NCBI RefSeq assembly: GCF_026151205.1
Contig: NC_087074.1
Span: forward strand, 8,225,726 to 8,289,725
Reading direction: 5' to 3'
Length of the DNA stretch: 64,000 bases
Origin: Bolinopsis microptera
Lineage: Eukaryota > Ctenophora > Tentaculata > Lobata > Bolinopsidae
Positions 43,119 through 63,694 of this stretch are shown here, piece by piece. Positions within the stretch are counted from its first letter, which is position 1. Each line of letters starts with the position of its first letter. The translations under genes were made by a program, and so were the position numbers. The notes beneath the pieces were generated by a model, which was given only the letters and a program-made list of their open reading frames with translations, did not search any database and had not been told where the DNA came from.

Positions 43119-44150
43119 CGAGATGCGAAGGCCGGATTGACATCGTGAATCAACTAATTAACCCCTATACACTGTCACTATGTACTATAGAAACCTGAAA
43201 AGTGGTTACTGCATACTGAAGGGAGAAGTGCCAAGACTACCTGCGATACATAGACGCTGTTGTCAGCACTGCGCACGAACCTTCCCATCGGGGTTCGTGG
43301 ATAGGTGCTTTTCTTGACTTGTGAAACAAGCGCAAGCGCGCCCGAAGTGGCGCGAAAGCACATGATTAGGTGAATTACTATTTCAACTCCGATATCAACC
43401 AAGTTTTTAAGTCCGATAAGAAGGTTTTTAAAAATTATACTATATCGTAGAAACTCTTGTATCACGTGGTGACCCCCACGGTCGCTTCACTATTCGACGC
43501 TACAGGGGGAGCCGCGCACTTCGTGCGCGGCGGGTCAAACAACGTATGACAAAGAAACTCTACAGTGAAACGACGCGACGATGGGGGTCACGACGTGATA
43601 CTAGTGTAAAGGCTAACACTCTTTTAGAAAACAATAATACAAAATTTTTTGCTCTAACCAGAGCCCTCTCGCTTGCAGTAGCGCGCGACCGCCGAAGGCG
43701 TCACGCAGTACGCGTATACACATTATGTGAACAAAACTTTTAAAAATCCGAGAAATCGATTTTTATCGAGCAATTCCTAATTATGTTATATAATATATAT
43801 TTATAGCTTGAATTAGCTGCTTTTGCGGCTACAAAACACGAAAGCCGCGCGCGCATCATTGAATAAGTCACTTACAAGACGAAACTCATCAATCAATCCA
43901 AAAAAGTGTTGCAAATTTGTTGTAGCGCGATGCGTTACTGTGCTGCGCCGCGCACTCAATAATGATTCTCCTGGCCTCGCTAGATCGGCAAGATGCGTTA
44001 CCTGGGGACCCAGGCTATTATGTTCTAAATAGAGCTAGAGATTCGGCGGAATGACAGGCTGAGCGCCGCCCAGTAACGAAATGCGCTACTGTGCCTCATC
44101 GAGCTGCGATGAATTGCGACATCGTCAATTAACCAAAATCTCTTCATGCA

Positions 44151-44322
44151 CTGTCTTTGAATGTGTTCAGCAGTATCTGTTATTAAATAATTTTACAAGA
44201 GCTGGCTCCAGAAGACCACTCCAGAAGACCACTACATAACATAAACCCTTTCTTTCCATTGTGTTACTTGTTCCTTAATATTTAACGGTCCTTGAATTTC
44301 ATTCATTTCCTGTGTTATCTGA
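44151..44322 (-). pseudogene. broken copy of exon 1 of the phytanoyl dioxygenase-like gene
   Basis: 44151-44322 matches 46102-46272 of the intact gene, including the region of the ATG (44304-44306), KEQVT-equivalent codons and the AGAGCTGGCTCCAGAAGACC block. It carries indels, a doubled CCAGAAGACCACT and sequence replaced around 44180-44200, so no reading frame survives. It lies ~0.5 kb downstream of the intact gene's stop, on the same strand. Confidence 0.75.
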
Positions 44323-44816: not shown

Positions 44817-46241
44817 CTAAAGTTTGAGAGCCTGCATGTAAGGTCTTATATCAAGTCCGGGATACCTTGCACCAAACCATTTGATGTTATCTTCGTTCCA
44901 GTACTCATGACCAGGTTTTGGAATGCCAAGCAGTGCTCTCTGTTTTGGTGACAACTTCATGAGCACACTTTCTACCTTACCATAATAATTCCATTTTGAC
45001 CAAGCAGGGTTCCAGGTTAAGTGCCAAAAACTGTCTCTCTTCTTCCATGCTATATTGATAACACTGCGTTTGTGTCCTACATTAACAGGTGTTCCTCGGT
45101 GCCAGACGTCGTATCTGTATAGCAAAACATCTCCAGGCTTATAAATTGGTATTACCTTGTAGGAAGAAGCTTTTATAAGTTTTGATATAATTAATTACAC
45201 ATTGTCAATTAGATCTACACCGTTACCAAAAGGTTGTTAATTCTGTCAACTTACCTCCCTGTCATAAATCTTTTTCCTGAATTGTGCAATTTGTGGGTGT
45301 TTTTCTTCAAAGTATCTTTCTGTATGACTCCGATCATTGTAAAACTCCCAGTGTCCACCGATTCCTGGCATGTTAATGTAGGGGGGTTTGTACAGTTCAT
45401 CATCTTCACCTTCTCTAAAACATACTGCAGTTCCTCCGCCAGTTATCTCTAATGGGATATTAATTAACTGTGAAACAGTGTACTATATGGCATCATTATT
45501 GATCGAAAGTCTGTATGATGCTACATATAATAAGGGGTGCCCATATTTAAAGCAAAGTTTGTGTTTAATGATAAGATGTCATAAAACTGTTGGGAAAGGG
45601 AAAATGTACCAGTATCTGCAAGGTAAGCAATAGCCGCCACATTTTCAGGCTGGTTCCAAGGTGTTGGATGTAGGAAAGTGTTATTGCCATAGTCCATGTG
45701 GAACCTCTGATCATTGTTCTGCTGTGCGCCAAAATCACTGTGTCCCGCTTTACACCACCCATCACTAAAATATATAGTTATAATTATGGAAATATTATAT
45801 GGCATGCTTGCTTTTGAACACATTTATTCAGTTTGTGCCAAATGCCAACAAATTTGTCAACAATTGCTCAGCCTTTCAAATATCTCAAGGCGAAAGGGAG
45901 GAACGGTTACTAATTATTAAATATGATTACTGGAATGATCATATTAGAAGATTTATTGAATACCTTTGTGCAAGGAGAATATCAGGAGTTCCCAGCAACT
46001 GTGATACAGCATCAATCAACTTTTCGTGAGTGGTGACATCATCCAGGTCATTACTAGTTGGAAATTCACATTTCCCATCCGATCCAAAATCTCTGCTGAC
46101 ACTGTCCTTGAATGTGTCCAGCATTATCTGTTTACATGATTCTACAAGAGCTGGCTCCAGAAGACCAGAGACGACTACATATCCCCTTTCTTGCCATTGA
46201 GTTACTTGTTCCTTACTTAACGGTCCTTGAATTTTATTCAT
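44817..46241 (-). CDS. phytanoyl-CoA dioxygenase (PhyH) family Fe(II)/2-oxoglutarate oxygenase
   Basis: Four phase-consistent exons (46241-45964, 45764-45610, 45448-45255, 45155-44817) encode 321 residues, a full-length PhyH domain. Family enzymes hydroxylate small or acyl substrates using Fe(II), O2 and 2-oxoglutarate. Seen: an N-terminal GYVVVSGLL strand typical of PhyH; the iron-binding HxD in RFHMDYGN (exon 2); a TEITGGGTAV turn (exons 2-3); the distal His in DVWHRGTPVN with HKRSVIN supplying the likely 2-oxoglutarate Arg (exon 4). No signal or targeting peptide is evident. The substrate cannot be told from sequence; the C-terminal region past the core (WNPAWSKW onward) resembles the uncharacterised PhyH group rather than human PHYH. 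Confidence 0.88.
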
Positions 46242-46616
46242 ATATCCTGGTATTTAATTCATGTGTTATTTGCGTGCTAAAGAGCTAGTATTTAAATATA
46301 AACCAATGTTTCTTTCAAATGGAGCGAATTTTACTACAATCAATAGAGGGTGAATCTTGGCAAATGAAAAAGTCCCTCAGGAAAACACAATTTTTTAGGA
46401 AATCACAATTTTTTAGGAAAACACAATTTTATTATTCATCACCAATTTAACACAAAGAGTTGAAATATGTTCAAAAACATATGAATTGCAAGCCTAACAA
46501 CAACATGAACAGTTTTCAAATTTGTCCCCATTTGGTTCCAAATTTATGGATTTATTTACTGGAACTGAGACGCCGCGCTGTTAACACAATTTAGCGAAAT
46601 TTAAACCGGTATATTA

Positions 46617-46967
46617 AATTTCATAATTGTATTACCGTATCAGGGAAGAAAAATAGCACTTAATTGTTTAATTCAATTTTTTTTCAATAATATTATGGCG
46701 GTTTTAAAAAACTGGTAATCAGCTATGGGGTTGTTCACATATTATTACGTAATCAATATTTTAGCAATTTTTTTACCCCCCCTCCCCATCCATAATTTCA
46801 TAATTGTATTACCGTATCAGGGAAGAAAAATAGCACTTAATTGTTTAATTCAATTTTTTTTCAATAATATTATGGCGGTTTTAAAAAACTGGTAATCAGT
46901 TATGGGGTTGTTCACATATTATTACGTAATCAATATTTTAGCAATTTTTACCCCCCCTCCCCCATCC
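46617..46967. repeat. tandem duplication of a 177-bp block
   Basis: 46617-46793 is repeated at 46794-46967 with only a few changes (for example CAGCTATGG and CAGTTATGG). The unit ends with a C-rich CCCCCCTCCCC tract. A related TTACGTAATC..CCCCCCCACCCCC piece follows at 47210. Non-coding. Confidence 0.9.
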
Positions 46968-47446: not shown

Positions 47447-50400
47447 ATGAGATTTCCACCACCAGCACTTCAAGCGTCAAAGATTCTGTCTAGAGGACTC
47501 CTGACATCAACCAGAAAATCCTTCCCCCCTCAAAATGCCCTACTTCACAAGTTCCTTCTTCCCTTTATGTCAGATAACGCTGAAAGAACTGCCATCGTAA
47601 GTAATTGAGTACGTGTTACAACTACTGAGACCTCGTATCTTTAGGTAGACTCATAGTACTAATTAAATTACAATTGAAAAAAGCAAGAACAGTTCTATGA
47701 TTTATATGCATATTCTCCATAACCCAGTTCACTCCCTAAATCCTTATGGTGATCATTCCAGATAGACTACGAGACCAAAGCCGAGCTTACCCACGGTGAA
47801 ATAGCAGAAAATGTGGGTAAAATAGCTCGCAGGATGATAGATTGGGGTGTAAAACCTGGTGATCACGTGGGACTGAGTTCGTTTAACCACTTGTACTACT
47901 TCCCCTTACAACTGGGCATCATGGCTGCTGGGGGTCGGGTGGCTCTGTGTAATCCTGGCTATACAGGTTAGAACAGTTTGTAGTGTCAACCTCTCATAGA
48001 ATCCAAAACGGACAGGACAGGACATGACATAGGCGGACATTGGCGGACGTGTCACTGTCACCCCCCCCCCCCCTTCTATTGCTCGACAAGTAAATTATGT
48101 GATACACTCTCCAATTCTCTCGATTTTGCCAGGTAGAGAAGTGGACCAACTGTTCCAGACTGCTGATGTCACCAGAGCTATTGGACATCCTAAAAATGCA
48201 GATGCAATAAAAGATACTTCTAAACGACAGGGTCTTCCAGAACCCCTAGGTATTTGTAGATTTTATTTATTGCTTATAACATCACAGAAGATCTGTAGCT
48301 GAGGAATCGTACATCTGAATGAATGACCTGAGATCCCAGTTATCGTGAATTTTCTATGACATCGAAATAAAAAATCACAACCTAATTGACCACACTTCCG
48401 CAGACATATCAAACATCATCGAAGAGAGCAAGCATTACTCCTCTGAACTACCCGACGTGGAGATGGGTATACACGATACCTGTGCCCTGTTTTACAGCAG
48501 TGGAACTACTGGCTTCCCCAAAGCGGTGGAGATTACCCATGATAACTTCGTGAGCCAGTGCATGTTGCTGGATGATCCGGGGTGCTTCAACTTTAGTATT
48601 GATACTGTTAATGTGAGTAGATTGTTCCTGGTTCGGTTATTGGTGTTGATAATCTTACCTAGGGTGTATTATTATATAATACAATAATATTACGTTTCGA
48701 AAATTTTTCAATGAATGTTATACGCTGATATTAATTGCTCACACTATTTGTCTACAGGTAGGCAATGAGTTTATTATCTATAAATCAAAACACAATTTAC
48801 CTGAACGAAATTATAATTTCCTAGTTTTTCCTTGTCATTTTACTTGAAAATATGTGCATGCATATTAAGGACTTTTGTTCAGAACGGATTTCTGCCCTCG
48901 TTTCACGTATTTGGAAGTGTTGTTGGTGCACATGTACTTCACAAAGGAGCAGCCTCTGTAATGCTCGATGGGTTTAATCCCCTGACCTTCCTTGGTGCTA
49001 CCCAGGATTACAAGGTATTGTCTGGAGATATTGTTTAAATTATATCTAATACATATCACACAGCATGGGTTTCTCCCTTCATTCCACCTGTGGGGCAATG
49101 CTGTTTTCATGCATCTTTTAATGAAGAGCGGACTCTCCGTTCAAATGGAATCTTTTCAACCGGAAGTGTTCCTTGAAGCAACACAACACTATAAGGTTAT
49201 AATAATTATCCGATATAAAGATATAATTTTATTTTTGCAGAATAAATACAGACCACAGATTCGGCTGTTTTTGCACTCATAATGAAGCTCCTCTACGCTA
49301 TCAGATTCTTAACACGTGGTATTTTCAATTACTCCTGCAAACATTAACCAATGTTTCATATCACTCTGAATGACAACTACTCTCTCTCTCGCCAGGTCTC
49401 CTTCGCAACGGTAGTACCCCCAATAATGGTATTCCTTGCCAAACACCCCCTGGTGGACAACTACGAGCTGTCCAGCCTGCGGGACCTGGTCTGTGCTGCT
49501 GCGCCGCTCTCTGAACAATTGGAGAATGAAGTTAGAACCAGGTTAAACAACGATAAGCTCAACTTCCGTCAAGGTATACTTCACTTTCAGATTCATTTTC
49601 TTTGCCTTATCAGCTATGTACTCAAAGACGGATTTTAAGATCTCAACATTTTTATCACGTGGACAGTTTGGAGGTACAGACTGAGACTAAGTAAATAAAG
49701 TAACGTAAACTACTAGCTATTAAAACTTTAGGTTACGGTCTCTCGGAAACTACAGCTGTATCCCACCACGTTAATAGAGACACGGGGAAGGCTGGTTGTA
49801 TAGGGGGCACTGCTAAAAACACTGTTTCCAAGGTCATTACCCAATACCCACTACCCAGACTATCATAGAATAATAATACAGACCTTGCTGGCATGGTGCT
49901 GTTCCCTTCTTTGTCTTTTAAAATATAAATTACACACATTCTTATGTGGAAATACTTGTTCAGTGTCTCATATTATATATTATTGAGTGGGCAAATAGGT
50001 ACAATACCGACCGGCTATAAACCAGTACAGCTGTTAGAGGGCTATTAGAGGGCTATTAGCCGGTTAATAGCTGGTCGGCATTGTAACTATTTGCCTATTG
50101 AGTGTATCATGCAATAATAATATTTGAGTGCTTGTGATCTTCAATTCTCAATTATGTGATCAAATGCCAAACGGCAAACTGTGAGATTAGGATAGGACCC
50201 TTTGTCATATTATGGCCATATTATAATTCTTTGGGTCATAATTTTCCAGAATAGCCATAAAACGAGCGCTTCGTCCCCTTAGAAATCTAAAATGGTTTAA
50301 AACTGCATGTCAATTTCGATCCAATCTAAATTAATTATTCATAGAAAACTGATCAAGCAACACTAAGATATAACAAATAATTTGAGCCTATTATTATGCA

Positions 50401-53400
50401 ATGAGGGCGACAAGCTTGAAGCTGGCTGGAGGTGGTTCGTAGTCCCCAGCATAGCAAACATGGGCTTCATTTGTTAGTGTTCTAGTAAGAAATCTTATAA
50501 CAGTTAATACAAATCGCTGCATGGTCGATTGTTTGACGATCAATTTTGAAGTTCATGCCATGCATATTATTCAGACTCAGAAATTTCGAATCTTAATAAT
50601 GCAGGGGGACTTGGGATTCAGTGGGCTGGAGATTTGGAAACTTAGGAAGAACTTTAGCCCATGGGAATCGGGAGAGGAAAAAACTTCAGGGTCTGCCGGG
50701 TTCAGGGTTGCATCCCCGAGGAAGCTATGCTTTCATAACCAATATCTGCTAAAAGATTGCTAGATTAAAAGTCTCGCATTCTGACAAGTTCGCTATTTTC
50801 TCAATAATATATTATCTCGGTTGTAACAAGATGTCACGTGCAGGTTATGGCCTAGGTGAGACAACGGCCATATCCCATTACATGACCCGAGGGCTGGATA
50901 AACCAGGATCCATTGGTGGTATTTGTAACAATTCTGAGACCCAGGTTACCGGTGTTATAATGCATGGGGTTGTCATGGCGTTGTCATGGAGCTGTCATGG
51001 GCCTGATTTTATATTACACGTGGTAAAATGGTCACAGCTCAGCAAGCCGCTGTCCCTGAAATAATGCAATGCATGATATCCTGAATTATCTGTACCAACT
51101 AGTGGGTGTAACATAAAAACCTATAATTTTTTAGCTTTTTTTGTGGCAGAATGTATCATGAAATATTATGTAGAAACCAAATGAAATGAAATTAAATGAA
51201 ATCAGTCGCATAGTTGAACTGTTTTCTTGGGTAATTTTCTATCGATCCCGTTTGATGAGACAAGGAAAAGGCTCTTATCAGGACCGGAATTATTCAACGT
51301 TTCAATGTGACAACATCGTATTCATGATGAATGGAGTTATGGATATTAGTATAACCGCAGTATTTAGTAATTAGTATAACCGCAGTAGGACTAACCCCCC
51401 TACAGCTAGTATAGTGCCTCGGCACAGAGTGGCTTAGGGTTACCGAAAAGGAGATACTGATAAGCACCTCAGGCCATTCCAACTTGTATCTTGTTGTTGT
51501 ATAACCGCAGTAAGTTGATAGTAGTAATTAGTAATTAGTATAATTAGTAAGTTGATATAATGAAGTAACAATACGTGCCCAGGGTACGGCCTGAGCGAGA
51601 CTACAGCAGCGTCACATTACTTAACTGCTGGCACAGTTAAAGCAGGAACTATTGGTTCTATAGGCAACAATTCTCTAACCAAGGTTACCCGTGAGGCTTC
51701 CTGATCGAGAGTGGTTAAGTTCATGAAATATTACGTCTTAGAACCTCTTTTCTGGCCACACTTAATTTAAATCATAAAATAAAATCATTCTTTAAATCTT
51801 TTCTTTCAGTTTGCCGGATTATACGATTACATGAAATAAATTCATATAGATTGGAGCATCTTTTTTTGTTGAGTACTTTTATAGTGTGTTTTGTGGTAAT
51901 CGACAGGGGGAGGGGGATGGTCTGAAAATCTGCGATTTTGGCGGACGTCCTAAGTAGATGGCCCCTTAAACTTTATATTTGGATGAAGTCTCTAGGATGT
52001 AAAGCTAGTCTGAATCGAAGATATTTGACTTACGACCAATTTGTTGGCTAAAAGCTATTTTATATGCCATATGGACCATACGCCATATATGGGCATTGTG
52101 TAGTTCCTCATAACACTGTAATCTCTTATAATCTAAACTCAGTGAAGGGGGTTTGTTACCCGTCAAGCCCTATCCTGTTGGTGAAGGTTGACCATTAGCC
52201 ACCACTAATGCTGATGTAAGAGAGGTGTACTCCAGCAATCTTGTACATCAGGCTATGCCAAATGTTAGGTTTAGCACTAACTCAAACTTCTTTACATAGT
52301 CGAACTAAGTTATAAATCAATTTAACCGAACTGAATTATACAAATTGAGTTTAGTAATTAATATAACCGTAGTAATTAGTAATTCTAGTATAATTAGTAA
52401 GTTGATATAATGAAGTAACAATACGTGCCCAGGGTACGGCCTGAGCGAGACTACAGCAGCGTCACATTACATAACTGCTGGCACAGTTAAAGCAGGATCT
52501 ATTGGTTCTATAGGCAACAATTCTCTAACCAAGGTTACCCGTGAGCTGCCTGCCAAATTACGTCTTAGAACCTCTTTTCTGGCCACACTTAATTTAAATC
52601 ATAAAATAAAATCATTCTTAAAATCTTTTCTTTCAGTTTGCCGGATTATACGATTACATTAAATAAATTCATATAGATTGGAGCATCTTTTTTTGTTGAG
52701 TACTTTTATAGGATGTTTTGTGTTAATTAAGAAATAAGCTTATTTTAGCCACACTTTGACATTCGATGAAGCATAATATGGAATGAAATGAGCTTTGAAA
52801 ATCATTATAAGGCCAGATATGTATCAAACGTTTCCCTATAAACCTAAAACTTTAAGCAAATGTTTTGAAAAGTACAGTTGTGTTAAATTAGGCAAATTAA
52901 GATATTGGCGGTTATTTATTGTATAGTAATTTAACCTGTCATTGCCTTGTTAGTGTATAGTAACTATCGCTGATACTTATAATATAATTTAAGGGAAATG
53001 TTCTACAATAATGCTGAATAAGTAAATAGCTGAATAACCTGTTAACCTGTATCCAGTCTAAGTAAGTTAAGTTCGTATAGTTATCCAAGTTGACATATTG
53101 TGCTCTGTGCAGGGTACGGCTTGACTGAGACAGGAGCAGCCTCACACATGCTGGTCCGTAAAGTTAAACCAGGATCTATTGGTTCATTATGCAGCAATTC
53201 TATCAGCAAGGTTATCCGTTTGCTGTCTAATGGAGAGCGGCCAAGTCCATGATTTGTTTTTAAATGAAAAACATATCTCATAGCTTCTTTTGTTTCCATG
53301 ATTTATTGAAATCATAAAAATATATAGCTTAAAACAGTTTCATTGCCGAGGTCACTTGTGGCTATCGAAAAAAATAAGCTTATTTCGACCGCATTACATT

Positions 53401-56159
53401 TTACACTAAAAAGGAATCAATGCAAGAGTGCTGTTAAAGTGCTGTTAAATCGATTGTTAATCAATCTTTTAATCACTGTTGGTTAATCAAAAAGAGATGT
53501 TTTTATCGGAAAATCGTAGTGTTTTTATTTCTAAGTGTTATTGCTTTTCTTTAACTTTATTGTCTGTTTCATGAACATTGATTACTGAATAGCATAAAAA
53601 ATTGCATGAAAAAAATGCATGACAAAATTGCTGCATTGTATATTGTACATGGCGTGGGTAATTACAGTAGACAGTACATTGTAAATATTACAATATTTTG
53701 ATTTTATAAGCTAACCTCTGCCTGCTTCACAATAGTAATTACAAGGCGAGCTAACTGATTTGCTGGGTCAGGTGGTAGATCCGGAGACAGGTAGAGAGTG
53801 CGGTGTAAACGAGCCTGGAGAGATCTACATCAAGGGACCCTGCGTTATGAAGGGCTACTACAAAAATCCTAAAGCTAATGCTGGTAAAACGCTTTTACAG
53901 TTTATTTTAACAGATGTCACGTGCCATGTTGTCACTGTTACGTTCAGAATTCATCAATCATCACGTGTCATTCTGAAATGCCCTATACTCAACGACGATT
54001 CACGTTTAAAAGCTCTTCAAACAGCTATATTACCGAGTCTTAGTTGCGTGTTATTTATAATTATATTAAATGTACTAAGTTTGACATAAATTTCCCAGAA
54101 ACTTTTACGGATGATGGTTTCCTAATAACTGGAGATATTGGGTACTACGACGAAGACGGCGATTTCTTTATCGTTGATAGGCTGAAAGAGCTTATTAAAG
54201 TTAAAGGCTTTCAGGTAAGTTAACTGAACGTATTTCTATCGTATTTTCATCGTATCCAAACTAAGTACTAACACTTACAAATTTATTGAGCTTATATCTA
54301 CTGGCCAATTATTAATTTGTAACATGATTAACAAGAAAGAAGTATGGGACCAATACTTGTTGCAGACTCTCTATTACAAGATTTTACAAACTATGATCTT
54401 ATCATTTATGTGTTTCAAGAACTCCCTCAGCTCCATACCATTTATTATCATACCAATCTGGAATCTGGGCTGTCTCCACTAGCAGCTCTATTGATTCGGT
54501 TCAGGGAAATTTTACATTTCTTGTTGAATCATTAGCCGACAGAAAATGTCCGGAAATGTGAGAGGCTACTTTATTTGTCATTAAACTCGTCGGGCCAGTG
54601 CCTACATTACACACTGATAGTGTTAATGTAATTATTCAAACTATGCTATGATAACATCCCATGAGAGCTTACGAACGAGGAATATTTCCAGGCGAGTGTA
54701 TGGAGTAGAATGTTCAGTGGTCACTACATATTATCCATAATATTTATGTGTGCCGTTCAGTAACAGTTCACACAAGAATTAAAATAACTTGAAATTCTAA
54801 TCTGCTCAACTGGATTTACTTGAATGCTAAGCCTCCCCATCCTTTTAAAATGATATACCACTGTATTATATTCACACAAAACAGGTATTTACTTCTGCCC
54901 CCTCATTTTAACAACCCCTCACCAACAGGTATTTACTTCTGCCCCCTCATTTTAACAACCCCTCACCCACACAGGTCGCACCGGCTGAACTAGAAGCACT
55001 TCTCCTAGAGCATCCCCTGATCGCTGATGCTGCAGTGATAGGCATACCCGACGAAAGAGCCGGAGAGAGACCTAAAGCTTTTGTAGTGAAACAACCGGGG
55101 GCTGATCTGGGGGAGGAAGGGGTGAAGAGTTTTATTGGGGAACACGCCTCGGATTACAAGATACCTGCCGAGGTTGGGAATACTTGATCAGCTGGTTTTA
55201 GTTTTCTGGTTTTATAAAATATGCCGTGGAGTAAAACGTGCTTATTGACCTTGGAAATTGTTATACTTATCATGATACCCATAATGAAATAATAGACGAA
55301 GTTACCTAAAATCAGGATTATATTACATGTTACCTAAAATCAGCATTATAAATCAAGAGGCTTGCATATAATGAACATATTGACATGGGTGCAGAGTTGA
55401 GTCTGTACGGAACCTAGTAGTTATATCATATTATGGAACAAGGCAATTTTAATTCACAAGGAAAACAAATCTTATAAGAAGATAAAAAACAGTTTAAAAA
55501 CGAAAAGTTTTACTTACAAAAAATCTGGAAGCAAATGTTTACCGGAAATAAAATTTCGCAAAGTCACGCACTTCACCGTGTCGTTATCAGTTATCAGGCA
55601 TCTTGAGATTCTACAGTTGTCTAATATTAGGCGGCATGAACAGATTGAACATGGGAAAAACGCGGAAATTTATAAAATTATGGAATGCATAATTACATTT
55701 GCAAAAAATGCAATGGGTCGAGACACTTAATGAACCGCAGGAAACGTACCGTAACAGTATATCGAGTTGGGGACCCCTACTCGCGGTGTCCTTAATCAGA
55801 TTACACAACTTTTTATTATCAGCTGGTGTAGGTTTCCAGATTATTGCATATTTTAATTTGGTGTCTACAAGGAACGTTGGACGTGCAACTGATTTGAATT
55901 AGAATTACATTGTTTTAACATTCAAATTTAGATACATATAGATCTCAAAATCATGTTAGATATTAATCCACAATCCACATAATATTTCAGTCTTGAATGA
56001 TTGGTTTTAGTTTAAAATGGGTTTGGTAAAGCTGTAGTTTAAAAACTCAAATTTCCCAAGGTGGAGTTTATTGACATGATCCCGAAGCTACCAAGCGGTA
56101 AAATACAGAGGAAAGTGTTGCGTGCAAGTGAACAAGCGAAACGGGACGCAAAGCAATAA
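47447..56159 (+). CDS. acyl-CoA synthetase of the ANL (AMP-forming) superfamily with alternative A4 and A5 exons
   Basis: Constant exons: 47447-47596, 47762-47966, 48133-48249, 48404-48612, 49396-49573, 53772-53883, 54099-54214, 54975-55172, 56061-56159. With one A4 exon (two versions) and one A5 exon (five versions) the protein is 538 residues (537 with the shortest cassette), normal for the family. These enzymes activate a carboxylate as acyl-AMP and then form the CoA thioester. Seen: A3 [17 protein letters not shown]4 GFLPSFH; a CAAAPLS turn before the cassettes (family GGAPL); A5 YGLSE; A7 TGD; A8 [13 protein letters not shown]10 [11 protein letters not shown] with the catalytic Lys. The first ~27 residues ([17 protein letters not shown]) are basic without acidic residues, suggesting mitochondrial import; the C-terminus is not a peroxisomal SKL. 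Closest in style to 4CL/medium-chain/luciferase-like members. Confidence 0.93.
48883..49014 (+). CDS. alternative exon 5a of the acyl-CoA synthetase (A4 segment)
   Basis: 132 bp, phase 0 to 0, between a TTGTTCAG acceptor and a GTATTG donor. Encodes [17 protein letters not shown] through ATQDYK, the A4 segment that lines the acyl pocket in ANL enzymes. It is 23/44 identical to exon 5b. Confidence 0.85.
49064..49195 (+). CDS. alternative exon 5b of the acyl-CoA synthetase (A4 segment)
   Basis: 132 bp, same length and phase as 5a, 49 bp downstream of it. Encodes [17 protein letters not shown] through ATQHYK. Differences from 5a (VF/LW, VGAHV/FMHLL) fall in the pocket-lining half, while the catalytic GFLPSFH is kept. 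Acceptor CACACAG, donor GTTATA. Confidence 0.85.
49732..49832 (+). CDS. alternative exon 7a (A5 segment)
   Basis: 101 bp, entering with two bases of a split Gly codon and leaving in phase 0. Encodes [16 protein letters not shown] and then [13 protein letters not shown]. Acceptor AACTTTAG, donor GTCATT. Confidence 0.85.
49985..50099. repeat. inverted repeat (hairpin) in the intron between exons 7a and 7b
   Basis: GGGCAAATAGGTACAATACC (from 49987) pairs with a GGCATTGTAACTATTTGCC arm ending at about 50095; inner arms GACCGGCTAT and ATAGCTGGTC also pair. About 115 bp, near-palindromic. It could be a small MITE or an RNA structure. Confidence 0.7.
50844..50944 (+). CDS. alternative exon 7b (A5 segment)
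   Basis: 101 bp, same phases as 7a. Encodes [16 protein letters not shown] and [14 protein letters not shown]; the A5 Ser/Thr before Glu is replaced by Gly. Acceptor CACGTGCAG, donor GTTACC. Confidence 0.85.
51583..51683 (+). CDS. alternative exon 7c (A5 segment)
   Basis: 101 bp. Encodes [16 protein letters not shown] and [14 protein letters not shown]. Acceptor GTGCCCAG, donor GTTACC. Nearly identical to 7d, flanks included. Confidence 0.85.
52433..52533 (+). CDS. alternative exon 7d (A5 segment)
   Basis: 101 bp. Differs from 7c by two codons (Leu to Ile, Thr to Ser). Same acceptor and donor as 7c. Confidence 0.85.
53113..53210 (+). CDS. alternative exon 7e (A5 segment)
   Basis: 98 bp, one codon shorter than the others, same phases. 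Encodes [16 protein letters not shown] and [14 protein letters not shown]; its A5 motif YGLTE is the family consensus. Acceptor CTGTGCAG, donor GTTATC. Confidence 0.85.
54886..54974. repeat. tandem 44-bp duplication at an acceptor
   Basis: ACAGGTATTTACTTCTGCC..CCCTCACC is present twice, directly before the acceptor at 54974. The duplication includes ACAGG, so it also creates upstream acceptor look-alikes; only the last one opens the [10 protein letters not shown] frame. Confidence 0.85.
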
Positions 56160-59460: not shown

Positions 59461-59714
59461 AGTTGTTAAAAGAATGTCTTAAGTCTGATGATAGTACCCA
59501 AATGTAAGGTTTTTTTTTTACATATTTGATAGATTTACAGATCTGGCTTGACAAAAATTTTCAGAAAAAATCATGTTCGCAGGAAGCAAAAATCCGATGA
59601 GTTTTTTAGGGGGGAGGGGTAGGGGGTTGAGGGGGGTTGGGAAGGGTTGTCACATGACGAGAAATTTTTCGCAAAAATTAAACAATCTTTATTTGTTGAT
59701 ATTATTCACCCCTG

Positions 59715-62300
59715 TTGCCTAGAGTGGTGGGTCTGCACTTGAGAAGAGTGGGTCTGGTCGCTAGAATGGTGGGTCTGCAATCTAGAAGTGGGTCTGGCAA
59801 CCAGAATGATGGGTCTGTACCCTTAAAGAGTGGTCTGACGACCAGAGTGGTGGGTGTGCACTTGAGAAGAGTGGGTCTGGCAGCTAGAATGGTGGGTATG
59901 CAATCTAGAAGTGGGTCTGTTAACCAGAATTGTGTGTCTACACCCTTGAAGAGTGGGTCTGACAACCAGAATGGTGGGTCTGCACTTGAGAAGAGTGGTT
60001 CTTGCGGCTGGAATGGTGGGTCTGCAATCTAGAAGTTGGTCTAGCAACCAGAATTGTGGATCTGCATTCGAGAATAATGAGTCTTCACTCTAGAAGAGTG
60101 GGTCTGACAACCAGAATGGTGGGTCTGCACTTGAGAAGAGTGGGTCTGGCGGCTGGAATGGTGGGTCTGCAATCTAGAAGTTGGTCTAGCAACAGAATTG
60201 TGGATCTGCATTCGAGAATAATGAGTCTTCACTCTAGAAGAGTGGGTCCGGCAACCAGAGTGGTGGGTCTGCACTTGAGAAGCGTGGGTCTGGCCGCTAA
60301 ATGGTGAGTCTGCACCCTTTAAGAGTGGGTCTGACAACCAGAATGGTGGGTCTGGACTTGAGAAGAGTGGGTCTGGCAGCTGGAATGGTGGGTCTGCAAT
60401 CTATAAGTGGTCTGGCAACCAGAATGGTGGGTGTACGTACACCCTTGAAGAGTGGGTCTGACAACCCGAGTGGTGGGTCTGAACTTGAGAAGAGTGGGTC
60501 TGGCAGCTGGAATGGTGGGTCTGCAATCTAGAAGTGGGTCCGGCAACCAGAATGGTGGGTGTACGTACACCCTTGAAGAGTGGGTCTGACAACCAGAGTG
60601 GTGGGTCTGCACCCTTGAAGAGTGGGTCTGACAACCAGTGTGGTGGGTCTGCACTTGAGAAGAGTGGGTCTGGCAGCTAGAATGTTGGGTCTGCAATCTA
60701 GAAGTGGGTCTGGCAGTTAGAATGGTGGGTCTGCAATCTAGACGTGGGTCTGGCAACATGAATGGTGGGTCTGCACCCTTCAGGCTTAAAGAGTGGGTCT
60801 GACAACCAGAGTGGTAGATCTGCACTTGAGAAGTGTGGGTCTGGCAGCTGGAATGGTGGGTCTGCAATCTAGAAGTTGGTCTGGCAACCAGAATGGTGGG
60901 TCTGCACCCTTCAGGCTTCAAGATCAAGAGTGGGTCTGACAACCAGAGTGGTGGGTCTGCACTTGAGAAGAGTGGGTCTGGCAGCTAGAATGTTGGGTCT
61001 GCAATCTATAAGTGGGTCTGGCAACCAGAACGGTCGGTCTGCAGTCTGCACCCTTAAAGAGTGGGTCTGACAACCAGAGTGGTAGATATGCACTTGAGAA
61101 GAGTGGGTCTGGCAGCTGGAATGGTGGGTCTGCAATCTAGAAGTTGGTCTGGCAACCAGAATGGTGGGTGTACGTACACCCTTGAAGAGTGGGTCTGACA
61201 ACCCGAGTGGTGGGTCTGGACTTGAGAAGAGTGGGTCTGGCAGCTGGAATGGTGGGTCTGCAATCTAGAAGTTGGTCTGGCAACCAGAATGGTGGGTTTA
61301 CGTACACCCTTGAAGAATGGGTCTGACAACCAGAGTAGTGGGTCTGGACTTGAGAAGAGAGGGTCTGGCAGCTGGAATGGTGGGTCTGCAATCTAGAAGT
61401 TGGTCTGGCAACCAGAATGGTGGGTGTACGTACACCCTTGAAGAGTGAGTCTGACAACCCGAATGGTGGGTCTTCACTCTAGAATAATAGGTCTGGTGGG
61501 TCTACACTTTAGAAGAGTGGGTCTGGCAACTAGATTGGTGTGTCTGCAATCTATAAGAGTGGGTCTGGCAACCAGAATAGTGGGTCTGCAATCAAGGGAA
61601 TCAAGATGAGTGAGTCTGGCAATCAGAATGGTGGGGCTGCACCTTAGGGTAGTGGGTCTGGAAACAAGAATGGTGGGTCAGAATTCTTGAATTGTGGGTC
61701 TTCACTCTAGCTAAGAGTGGGTCTGGCAACAAGAATGGTGGGTAAGAATTCTAGAATAGTGGTTCTTCACTCTAGAAGAGTGGGTCTGGCAACCAGAATG
61801 GTAAGTCTACACTCTGTCAAGTGTCAACCAGAATTGGGGGTCTAAACTAGAATATAGGATATATGGCAACCAGAATTGTGCGTCTGGAGTCTAGAGTCTA
61901 GAATAGTGGGTCCGGCAACCCGAAAGGTGGGTGTTCACTCAAGAATAGTGGGTCTGGCAATCGGAATGGTGCGTCTACACTCTAGAAGAGTGGGGCTGGC
62001 AACCAGAATGGTAGGTCTTCGCCTTAGAAGAGTGGGTCTGGCAACCAGAATGGTGGGTCTGCATTTTAGAATAGTGGGTCTTGACTCTGTACCTACTAGA
62101 AGAGTGGGTCTCCTCTCTAGAAGAGTGAATCTGGCAACCAGAATGGTAATTCTTCACTCTGTCAACCAGAATTGGGGGTCTATGAACTAGAATATAGGAG
62201 ATATGACAACCAGAATTGTGGGTCTGGACTCTAGAATAGTGGGTCTGGCAACCAAAATGTTGAGTCTGCACTCTAATAGAGTGGGTCTGGCAACTAGAAT
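59715..62300. repeat. 42-bp minisatellite with higher-order structure
   Basis: About 60 units built from GTGGGTCTGGCAACCAGAAT and GGTGGGTCTGCAATCTAGAAG. From about 60300 to 61460 three monomer types alternate as a ~126-bp higher-order unit, one type marked by GTACGTACACCCTTGAAG. Units past 61500 are more irregular. Because 42 is a multiple of three, long frames stay open on both strands; they are not genes. Confidence 0.93.
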
Positions 62301-62303
62301 GCA

Positions 62304-63694
62304 GACACGTAGCCAAGGGGAAGACCCCCGGAAAAAAATTGAACCCCAAAAAAAATAAGCCCCCTAGTCCCCATGGTCGCCTGGTAAGTGGGCTGTGTTT
62401 ATGACTGTTTGATTAAACGACACGACAGGCAATCGACTTTAGCATTTCGTAAATTATTCCCAAATCCCACTATACAATATGTACTTATTCCATTCAATGT
62501 GACAAGTACTGAGTTCCCCCCTAGCCCCCAACTTTGTATTATTGTGATGTCTGAAATTACAAATTTCTAATGCCAAATGTCGTCTGAAACACCCTATTTC
62601 TCAAAAATTTTCCGGGTGCTGCACCCCCAACTTTGTATTATCGCCGTCCTACAAATTTCTTTAATGCCTAATGTCGTCTAAAACAAATAATTTCTAAAAA
62701 TTTTCTTGGGGGCTGCGCCCCCCCCCCCCCCAGTCCCCCAACTTTATATTATTGTGATGTCTGATTATTACTGCGCCCCCACAGCCCACTAATCTTGTAT
62801 TATTGTAATGTCTGATTATTGCTGTCTCACAAATGTCGTCTGGAACACCCTATTTCTCAAAAATTTTCCGGGTGCTGCACCCCCAACTTTGTATTATCGC
62901 CGTCCTACAAATTTCTTTAATGCCTAATGTCGTCTAAAACAAATAATTTTTTAAAAATTTTCTTGGGGGCTGCGCCCCCCCCCCCCCAGTCCCCCAACTT
63001 TATATTATTGTGATGTCTGATTATTACTGCGCCCCCCAGCCCACCAACCTTGTATTATTGTAATGTCTGATTATTGCTGTCCCACAAATGTCGTCTGGAA
63101 CACCCTATTTCTCAACAATTTTCCGAAGGCCAGGGCTGCGCCTGCCTAGCCCTCCAACTTTGTATTATTGTGATGTCTGATTATAATTACTGTCCTACAA
63201 ATTTCTTTAATGTCAAATGTCGTCTAAAACACATAATTTCTCAAAAATTTTCTGATTGGCTGCGCCCCCCCCCCCCTCCCTAGCCAACCAACTTTATATT
63301 ATTGTGATGTCTCAGGATTATTACTGCCCTACTAATTTCTTTAATGCCAAATGTCGTCTAAAACACATTATTTCTCAAAAATTTTCTGGGGGGCTGCGCC
63401 CCCCCCCCCCCGGCCCCCCAACTTTATATTATTGTGATGTCTGATTATTACTATCCCCAAATTTCTTTAATGCCAAATGCCGTTTTAATCACCCTATTTC
63501 TCAAAAATTTTCCTGGGGGTTCGCTCCCCTAGCCCACCAACTTTATATTATTCTGATGTATGATTATTGCTCTCCTACAAATTTCTTTAATGCCAAATGT
63601 CGTCTAAAACACATAATTTCTCAAAAATTTTCTGGGGGGCTGCGCCTTCCCCCCTCCCTAGCCAACCAAAGGAGCTTCGCCCCGGCTACGTGTC
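62304..63694. mobile_element. TIR-flanked satellite block, 1.39 kb
   Basis: Perfect 11-bp inverted ends GACACGTAGCC (62304 and 63684-63694) enclose about nine units of 120-160 bp, each with CCAACTTTATATTATTGTGA, ACAAATTTCTTTAATGCC, AATGTCGTCTAAAACAC and TCTCAAAAATTTTC, closing with a GGGGCTGCGCCCCC run. One ~250-bp pair of units (62525-62770 and 62840-63000) is duplicated almost exactly. No transposase. Confidence 0.8.

Follow-up and report, generated by a model that had tools for sequence, protein, structure and literature searches.

A stretch of 64,000 nucleotides from the ctenophore Bolinopsis microptera (NCBI RefSeq assembly GCF_026151205.1, contig NC_087074.1, positions 8,225,726 to 8,289,725 of the forward strand; hereafter the window, in whose numbering positions are given) contains an acyl-CoA synthetase gene at 47447-56159 on the + strand. 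The gene has 11 exon positions, two of which have alternative copies: there are two versions of exon 5 (5a and 5b) and five of exon 7 (7a to 7e). We consider it probable that these copies are mutually exclusive exons and that they yield up to 2 x 5 pocket variants of one 4-coumarate:CoA ligase (4CL)/luciferase-like acyl-CoA synthetase. In the model that we favor, two already modular exons, each encoding part of the pocket wall, would have been duplicated in tandem, exon 5 being present twice (the gate) and exon 7 five times (the A5 segment). The splicing machinery would pick one exon per set to give up to 10 enzymes with a common catalytic framework and different pockets, and the acyl or aryl substrate range would differ between the isoforms. 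A previous reading of the window, made from the letters and referred to below as the sequence-only reading, had described the exon 7 array and overlooked the exon 5 pair. Papers are cited by PMC number.

By its domains, motifs and relatives, the predicted gene product is a 4CL/luciferase-like acyl-CoA synthetase of the ANL superfamily, and its substrates are probably fatty or aromatic acids. The spliced product matches Pfam AMP-binding (5e-70, residues 44-394) and AMP-binding_C (1.6e-12, residues 445-505), and its closest solved relatives are tobacco 4CL2 (327 bits) and the Drosophila fatty-acyl-CoA synthetase CG6178 (325 bits). Alignment to the solved 4CL and CG6178 chains showed that the A3, A5 and A7/A8 motifs and the C-terminal lysine are present. 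The catalytic lysine is that of the PSGKI motif in exon 11. None of the 25 NCBIfam models listed, of 106 matched, reaches its own cut-off, so that they do not name a substrate.

The five versions of exon 7 are 101, 101, 101, 101 and 98 nucleotides long, all 3n+2, and each has an AG acceptor and a GT donor, is entered in phase 1 and is left in phase 0. The intact frame, splice sites and identical phases claimed by the sequence-only reading were found in all five, and the positions that it gave for the five cassette starts, the end of exon 6 and the start of exon 8 are all correct (Table 1). The cassettes are mutually 50-94% identical in protein. The motif G-YGLxE..SH..PGsIG..NS proposed for them holds as a consensus, from which 7a departs with AGCIG..NT and 7c and 7d with AGxIG. 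Exons 7c and 7d differ at two bases, both of which change an amino acid conservatively (Leu/Ile and Thr/Ser), and the duplicated block in which they lie has 90.6% identity over 382 aligned columns; the pair appears to be a fairly recent duplication. The really distinct versions of exon 7 would be closer to four, since 7c nearly equals 7d. The earlier claim of five versions of the active-site wall is supported as regards five in-frame A5 exons, most pairs of which show signs of constraint; the splicing of each is a prediction. In comparisons of 900-nucleotide windows, the likeness of 7b to 7c is limited to the exon and about 10 bases per side. The flanks of 7a and 7b are unlike those of the other cassettes beyond the exon edges, while 7c, 7d and 7e have some downstream sequence in common. 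A search of the 264.65-megabase genome with 7d matched the five cassettes only; the same search missed the A5 exons of paralogues too, and close copies are therefore all that it excludes at other places.

Whichever exon 5 is paired with whichever exon 7, all 10 predicted transcripts have an open frame with a common stop, giving 538 residues, or 537 with 7e. When exon 7 is skipped, a stop occurs at the eighth codon past exon 6, and all 10 two-cassette joins, like two larger joins tried, run into a stop at codon 368, which is codon four of the second cassette. As predicted from these joins, the frame structure of exon 7 tolerates only one cassette at a time, and exclusion would be enforced or policed by the frame shift and nonsense-mediated decay.

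Exons 5a and 5b, of 132 nucleotides each and 52% identical in protein, lie at the gate segment, FLPSFH, which is equivalent to the fatty-acid gate of the ACSL enzymes. When the window was searched with each exon of the gene, no other exon was found to have a second copy, and a genome search with 5b returned both copies and, as a weak match (E 0.78), the exon, present once, of the C9 paralogue described below. The intron between 5a and 5b is 49 nucleotides long, compared with at least 154 for every other intron of the gene, and any branch point in it lies less than 50 nucleotides from the 5a donor. The steric threshold for the distance between a branch point and the upstream donor is about 50 nucleotides (PMC7969005, PMC5740500), and the proposed reason why 5a and 5b would exclude each other is steric, the branch point being too near the donor. 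Among human clusters, 60% have an exon length not divisible by three and 9% have potential steric interference, and on these figures either feature is a recognized sign of a cluster of this kind (PMC5740500). The features by which PMC3228551 recognizes mutually exclusive clusters, i.e., similar length, conserved splice sites and frame without in-frame stop, and homology, were all found here. Taken as a whole, the duplicated exons are probably functional as mutually exclusive exons.

A PDB match was used to fix luciferase numbering on the protein; the exon 7 alignment is gapless apart from 7e. Exon 7 corresponds to firefly luciferase residues 339-372. Eight luciferase pocket residues are named in PMC8268740, and seven of them fall in duplicated exons, His245, Phe247 and Thr251 in exon 5 and Gly341, Thr343, Ala348 and Ile351 in exon 7; the remaining one, Ala313, falls in exon 6. 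Similarly, seven of the 12 active-site residues tabulated in PMC5495494 are in duplicated exons, three in exon 5 and four in exon 7. The earlier view that the A5 cassette is an active-site segment is supported. Three of the four named positions in exon 7 vary between cassettes: for 7a to 7e in order, residue 343 is S, G, S, S and T, residue 348 is V, I, A, A and A, and residue 351 is H, Y, Y, Y and M. Residues 339-342, 344 and 345 are invariant, 341 always being Gly, so that the Gly-Tyr-Gly and Glu-Thr core is unchanged. The sequence-only reading had put the differences after the YGLxE core; most are indeed in the second half, but 343, 346, 348 and 351, in or just after the core, vary too. Within columns 339-351 four vary, three being pocket positions, a remark made post hoc. 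When exon 5 was aligned by hand, both copies had His at position 245 and Val in place of Thr251; Phe247 was kept in 5a and replaced by Trp in 5b. Work on related enzymes touches the same segment. The exclusion of sinapate by tobacco 4CL2 is ascribed to its Gly339-Leu342 region with Val341 (PMC13341628), and this stretch aligns to TAVS of exon 7a; Peucedanum 4CL1 lost its activity through the change G334A (PMC5239791), and G334 is, from its number, probably the second Gly of Gly-Tyr-Gly. An effect of cassette choice on substrate choice is likely. That the gate (2) and A5 wall (5) clusters act independently, as a combinatorial pocket code giving up to ten substrate ranges by splicing rather than by gene duplication, is a more tentative proposal, to which we would give slightly less than an even chance.

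Selection on the copies was studied with Nei-Gojobori counts and Fisher tests for all 11 exon pairs. An excess of synonymous changes was found in eight pairs (7a-7b, 7a-7c, 7a-7d, 7a-7e, 7b-7c, 7b-7d, 7b-7e and 5a-5b), with p from 0.006 to 3e-7. In the comparisons of 7a with 7b, 7c and 7e the proportions of synonymous (pS) and nonsynonymous (pN) differences were 0.81-0.92 and 0.28-0.41, respectively, and for 5a-5b pS was 0.87 and pN 0.34; the ratio of nonsynonymous to synonymous rates (dN/dS) was 0.20 for 7b-7c and 0.31 for 7b-7e. We also simulated neutral change starting from 7b (20,000 runs, no insertions or deletions), scoring as retained those runs that kept an open frame, AG and GT, and the eight invariant residues. 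With 0.3 substitutions per site the retained fraction was 0.0017, and with 0.5 it was 0.0001. There are signs of purifying selection in most exon comparisons.

Paralogues were checked for cassettes by tblastn and a scan for the motif YGxxE on C9 (L001-L003), on C2 (L004-L005), at 3.41 megabases on C2 (L007) and at 14.16 megabases on C7 (L006). The C9 and C2 paralogues show one exon 7 each, with identical 101-nucleotide boundaries, and one exon 5. The gene at 3.41 megabases on C2 shows one A5 exon, and in that on C7 no A5 exon was found by the YGxxE motif. Because paralogues have a single exon with the same boundaries, exon 7 was probably modular before it was multiplied. Arrays were found only in this gene among the genes checked, other AMP-binding places being uninspected and diverged cassettes being able to escape such a search.

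Several observations weigh against the reading of mutually exclusive pocket exons. The synonymous excess is not significant in 7c-7e (p 0.14) and 7d-7e (p 0.29), and p is 1 for 7c-7d; 7c and 7d may be redundant, or 7e relaxed. Further, pairwise tests assign no constraint to each single copy or branch. Twenty of the 34 columns of exon 7 vary, so that, with all of the exon considered, the pocket positions do not stand out as variable. Both copies of exon 5 have lengths of 3n, so that their double use or skipping keeps the frame, and only the short intron opposes double use. Dscam arrays use docking/selector RNA pairing, and introns 6-7a and 7e-8 were scanned for such pairing in 40-nucleotide segments (6 and 27, respectively), each set against the remaining introns, and 30 and 16 dinucleotide shuffles, respectively, served as the null. 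None of the 30 shuffles equalled the best segment of intron 6, at 49654, when judged by its weakest partner, and 3 of 30 did so by the sum; for the best segment of intron 7e-8, at 53211, the figure was 0 of 16 on both measures. Random 40-mers of the window did equally well in 5 of 170 cases (versus 49654) and 2 of 170 (versus 53211), and the positions of the partners relative to the cassettes were inconsistent; no docking/selector pairing of consistent layout was found in these two introns.

It might also be that the copies are mostly relics, with one exon 7 and one exon 5 in use and the others decaying or never spliced. Such a history would agree with the fairly recent origin of 7c/7d, with its two amino-acid and zero synonymous changes, with the lack of significant constraint between 7e and 7c/7d, and with the donors, whose match to RAGT, counted by hand, is 1-2 of 4 in the duplicated exons and 1-4 of 4 in the constitutive ones (Mann-Whitney p 0.011, the copies being non-independent). 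Weak donors, however, are also expected in regulated exons, and all seven duplicated exons keep an open frame, both splice sites and the right phase. Given also the synonymous excess in eight of 11 pairs and the low retention in the neutral simulation, we regard this history of relics as quite unlikely. Regulation by poison exons, in which double inclusion or skipping leads to transcript decay and lowers expression, would account for the early stops produced by skipping and by all ten double inclusions. Protein-level constraint is not expected of poison exons, though, and each cassette alone restores the frame; this explanation is very improbable.

A different question is whether cassettes that are functional need alter substrate choice at all, rather than, for instance, stability, domain closure or catalytic rate. 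Sixteen of the 20 variable exon 7 columns are at 352 or higher, beyond the named pocket positions, and the gate swap of ACSL6 has been proposed to define activity in general (PMC1543647). Against this, the two duplicated exons hold seven of the eight luciferin-pocket residues of PMC8268740, and 343, 348 and 351 are substituted while 339-342, 344 and 345 are spared, so that tuning of this kind seems to us rather unlikely. Finally, the copies could be unresolved haplotypes, i.e., an assembly artefact. While 7c and 7d are close enough to raise that doubt for their pair alone, DNA differences of 33-54% among 7a, 7b, 7c and 7e and between 5a and 5b exceed haplotype divergence, and the flanks of 7a and 7b match those of no other cassette beyond the exon edges, making an artefact hardly credible.

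Homologous alternative exons are known from other genes, among them pip, which is an enzyme gene, and COQ-2, whose product has a fold unrelated to the ANL fold. Like the present gene, human ACSL6 and ACSL1 are ANL acyl-CoA synthetases with mutually exclusive homologous exons at the fatty-acid gate; they have one cluster of two exons of 26 residues and belong to the long-chain family (PMC1543647), whereas the Bolinopsis gene is 4CL/luciferase-like and, besides its pair of 44-residue exons, has another cluster of five exons at A5. An ACSL-type gate was considered here and rejected. The ACSL gate motif is D-x4-[FY]-LPLAH-x2-E (PMC1543647), in place of which exon 4 and 5a/5b read D-x5-F-LPSFH-x2-G, and the nearest solved relatives are 4CL2 and CG6178. 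In the COQ-2 gene of helminths, annelids and molluscs, equal-length mutually exclusive exons 6a and 6e remodel the substrate tunnel and switch the substrate; there are two exons, and the effect was proven by exon removal (PMC7434440), whereas here up to 2 x 5 variants are predicted. The COQ-2 authors consider such substrate-switching exons rare and cite CYP4F3 as another case (PMC7434440). The OGDH exons 4a/4b resemble what is proposed for 5a/5b in being a mutually exclusive pair of a metabolic enzyme, kept exclusive by branch points that lie less than about 50 nucleotides from the upstream donor, but the pair switches calcium sensitivity rather than a substrate pocket, and its branch points were mapped experimentally (PMC7969005). 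In ctenophores, mutually exclusive exons have been predicted in Mnemiopsis Mhc2, likewise at a nucleotide-binding segment (after the P-loop, loop-1 and switch-1), in a muscle myosin with a single pair (PMC3912159). Homologous alternative exons are also arrayed within a single gene in Dscam1 and in Drosophila pip, the latter with eight terminal-exon clusters, but these encode receptor ectodomains or are terminal exons and do not encode internal active-site segments (PMC9013439). The statement of the sequence-only reading that it knew of no ANL enzyme described with this layout needs to be narrowed, as pocket exon pairs were known from ACSL6/ACSL1 (PMC1543647); among the open-access papers listed, no title or abstract opening mentions an ANL enzyme that has an array of five such exons or two clusters of them. 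Two-exon switches are already known (ACSL1/6 and COQ-2), and the present gene would be a larger, two-cluster version.

Table 1. Exons of the predicted acyl-CoA synthetase gene and the intron between exons 5a and 5b, in window coordinates.
Feature	Coordinates	Strand	Remarks
Exon 1	47447..47596	+	ATG start; N-terminus basic, no acidic residues among first 42
Exon 2	47762..47966	+	
Exon 3	48133..48249	+	
Exon 4	48404..48612	+	A3 P-loop motif
Exon 5a	48883..49014	+	132 nucleotides; gate/acyl-pocket segment
Intron 5a-5b	49015..49063	+	49 nucleotides
Exon 5b	49064..49195	+	132 nucleotides; alternative gate segment
Exon 6	49396..49573	+	Phase 1 end; upstream partner of exon 7 array
Exon 7a	49732..49832	+	A5 segment; 101 nucleotides, 34 residues
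Exon 7b	50844..50944	+	101 nucleotides, 34 residues
Exon 7c	51583..51683	+	101 nucleotides, 34 residues
Exon 7d	52433..52533	+	101 nucleotides; apparent recent copy of 7c, 2 nucleotides and 2 residues apart
Exon 7e	53113..53210	+	98 nucleotides, 33 residues, one shorter
Exon 8	53772..53883	+	Downstream partner of exon 7 array
Exon 9	54099..54214	+	TGD and hinge motifs
Exon 10	54975..55172	+	AMP-binding_C domain begins
Exon 11	56061..56159	+	PSGKI motif, stop codon; acceptor reads cccaag

Other features of the gene and its surroundings were recorded. The N-terminus encoded by exon 1 could be a mitochondrial presequence, judged by eye. U12 splicing was considered and rejected, the donors being, by eye, unlike U12 sites. 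Before the exon 10 acceptor, 54880-54967 is a perfect 44-base-pair tandem duplication that repeats the sequence AACAGGTATTT in intron 9. Upstream of the gene is an AT-rich sequence in two nearly identical copies, which start at 46622 and 46799, 177 bases apart. A PhyH (phytanoyl-CoA dioxygenase)-like gene at 44820-46253 on the - strand is arranged head to head with the gene for the acyl-CoA synthetase, and its exons, joined by eye, match Pfam PhyH (4.2e-5; 24.4 bits, the cut-off being 22). Because PhyH enzymes act on acyl-CoA, this neighborhood may be functional. Near 44140-44240 there is, by eye, an apparent repeat of a part (46100-46160) of the first PhyH-like exon, possibly a decayed partial copy. 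Farther along, 59700-62400 is a long region of imperfect repeats, with frames of the type VGLxxRxVGL on one strand and SCQTHSSxVQTHHSGCQTHS on the other.

Elsewhere in the genome, a search for photoproteins of the mnemiopsin/berovin type gave 55 matches on C1, C3, C5 and C13, 15 of them on C5 alone. Query residues 9 to 184/185 are covered in one frame by 51 of the 55, and many matches are in tight tandem arrays with a spacing of about 940-1030 base pairs; genes for light-emitting proteins are thus very numerous here. One single-frame photoprotein gene (L008) scored 408 bits with Berovin, 407 with Mnemiopsin 1 and 76 with obelin, which marks the genome as that of a ctenophore.

Enzyme families mostly diversify by gene copying. 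Here, two exons that together carry most of the named pocket residues have been multiplied inside one gene. If they are spliced as predicted, a lineage close to the base of the animal tree would have a modular set of pockets built on a single ANL scaffold. The gene would then offer a natural experiment on the extent to which an adenylating enzyme is retuned when only the A5 wall and the gate are exchanged, a matter otherwise addressed through mutation by 4CL and luciferase engineers. In sum, if this reading is true, multi-exon arrays would serve metabolic active sites too.

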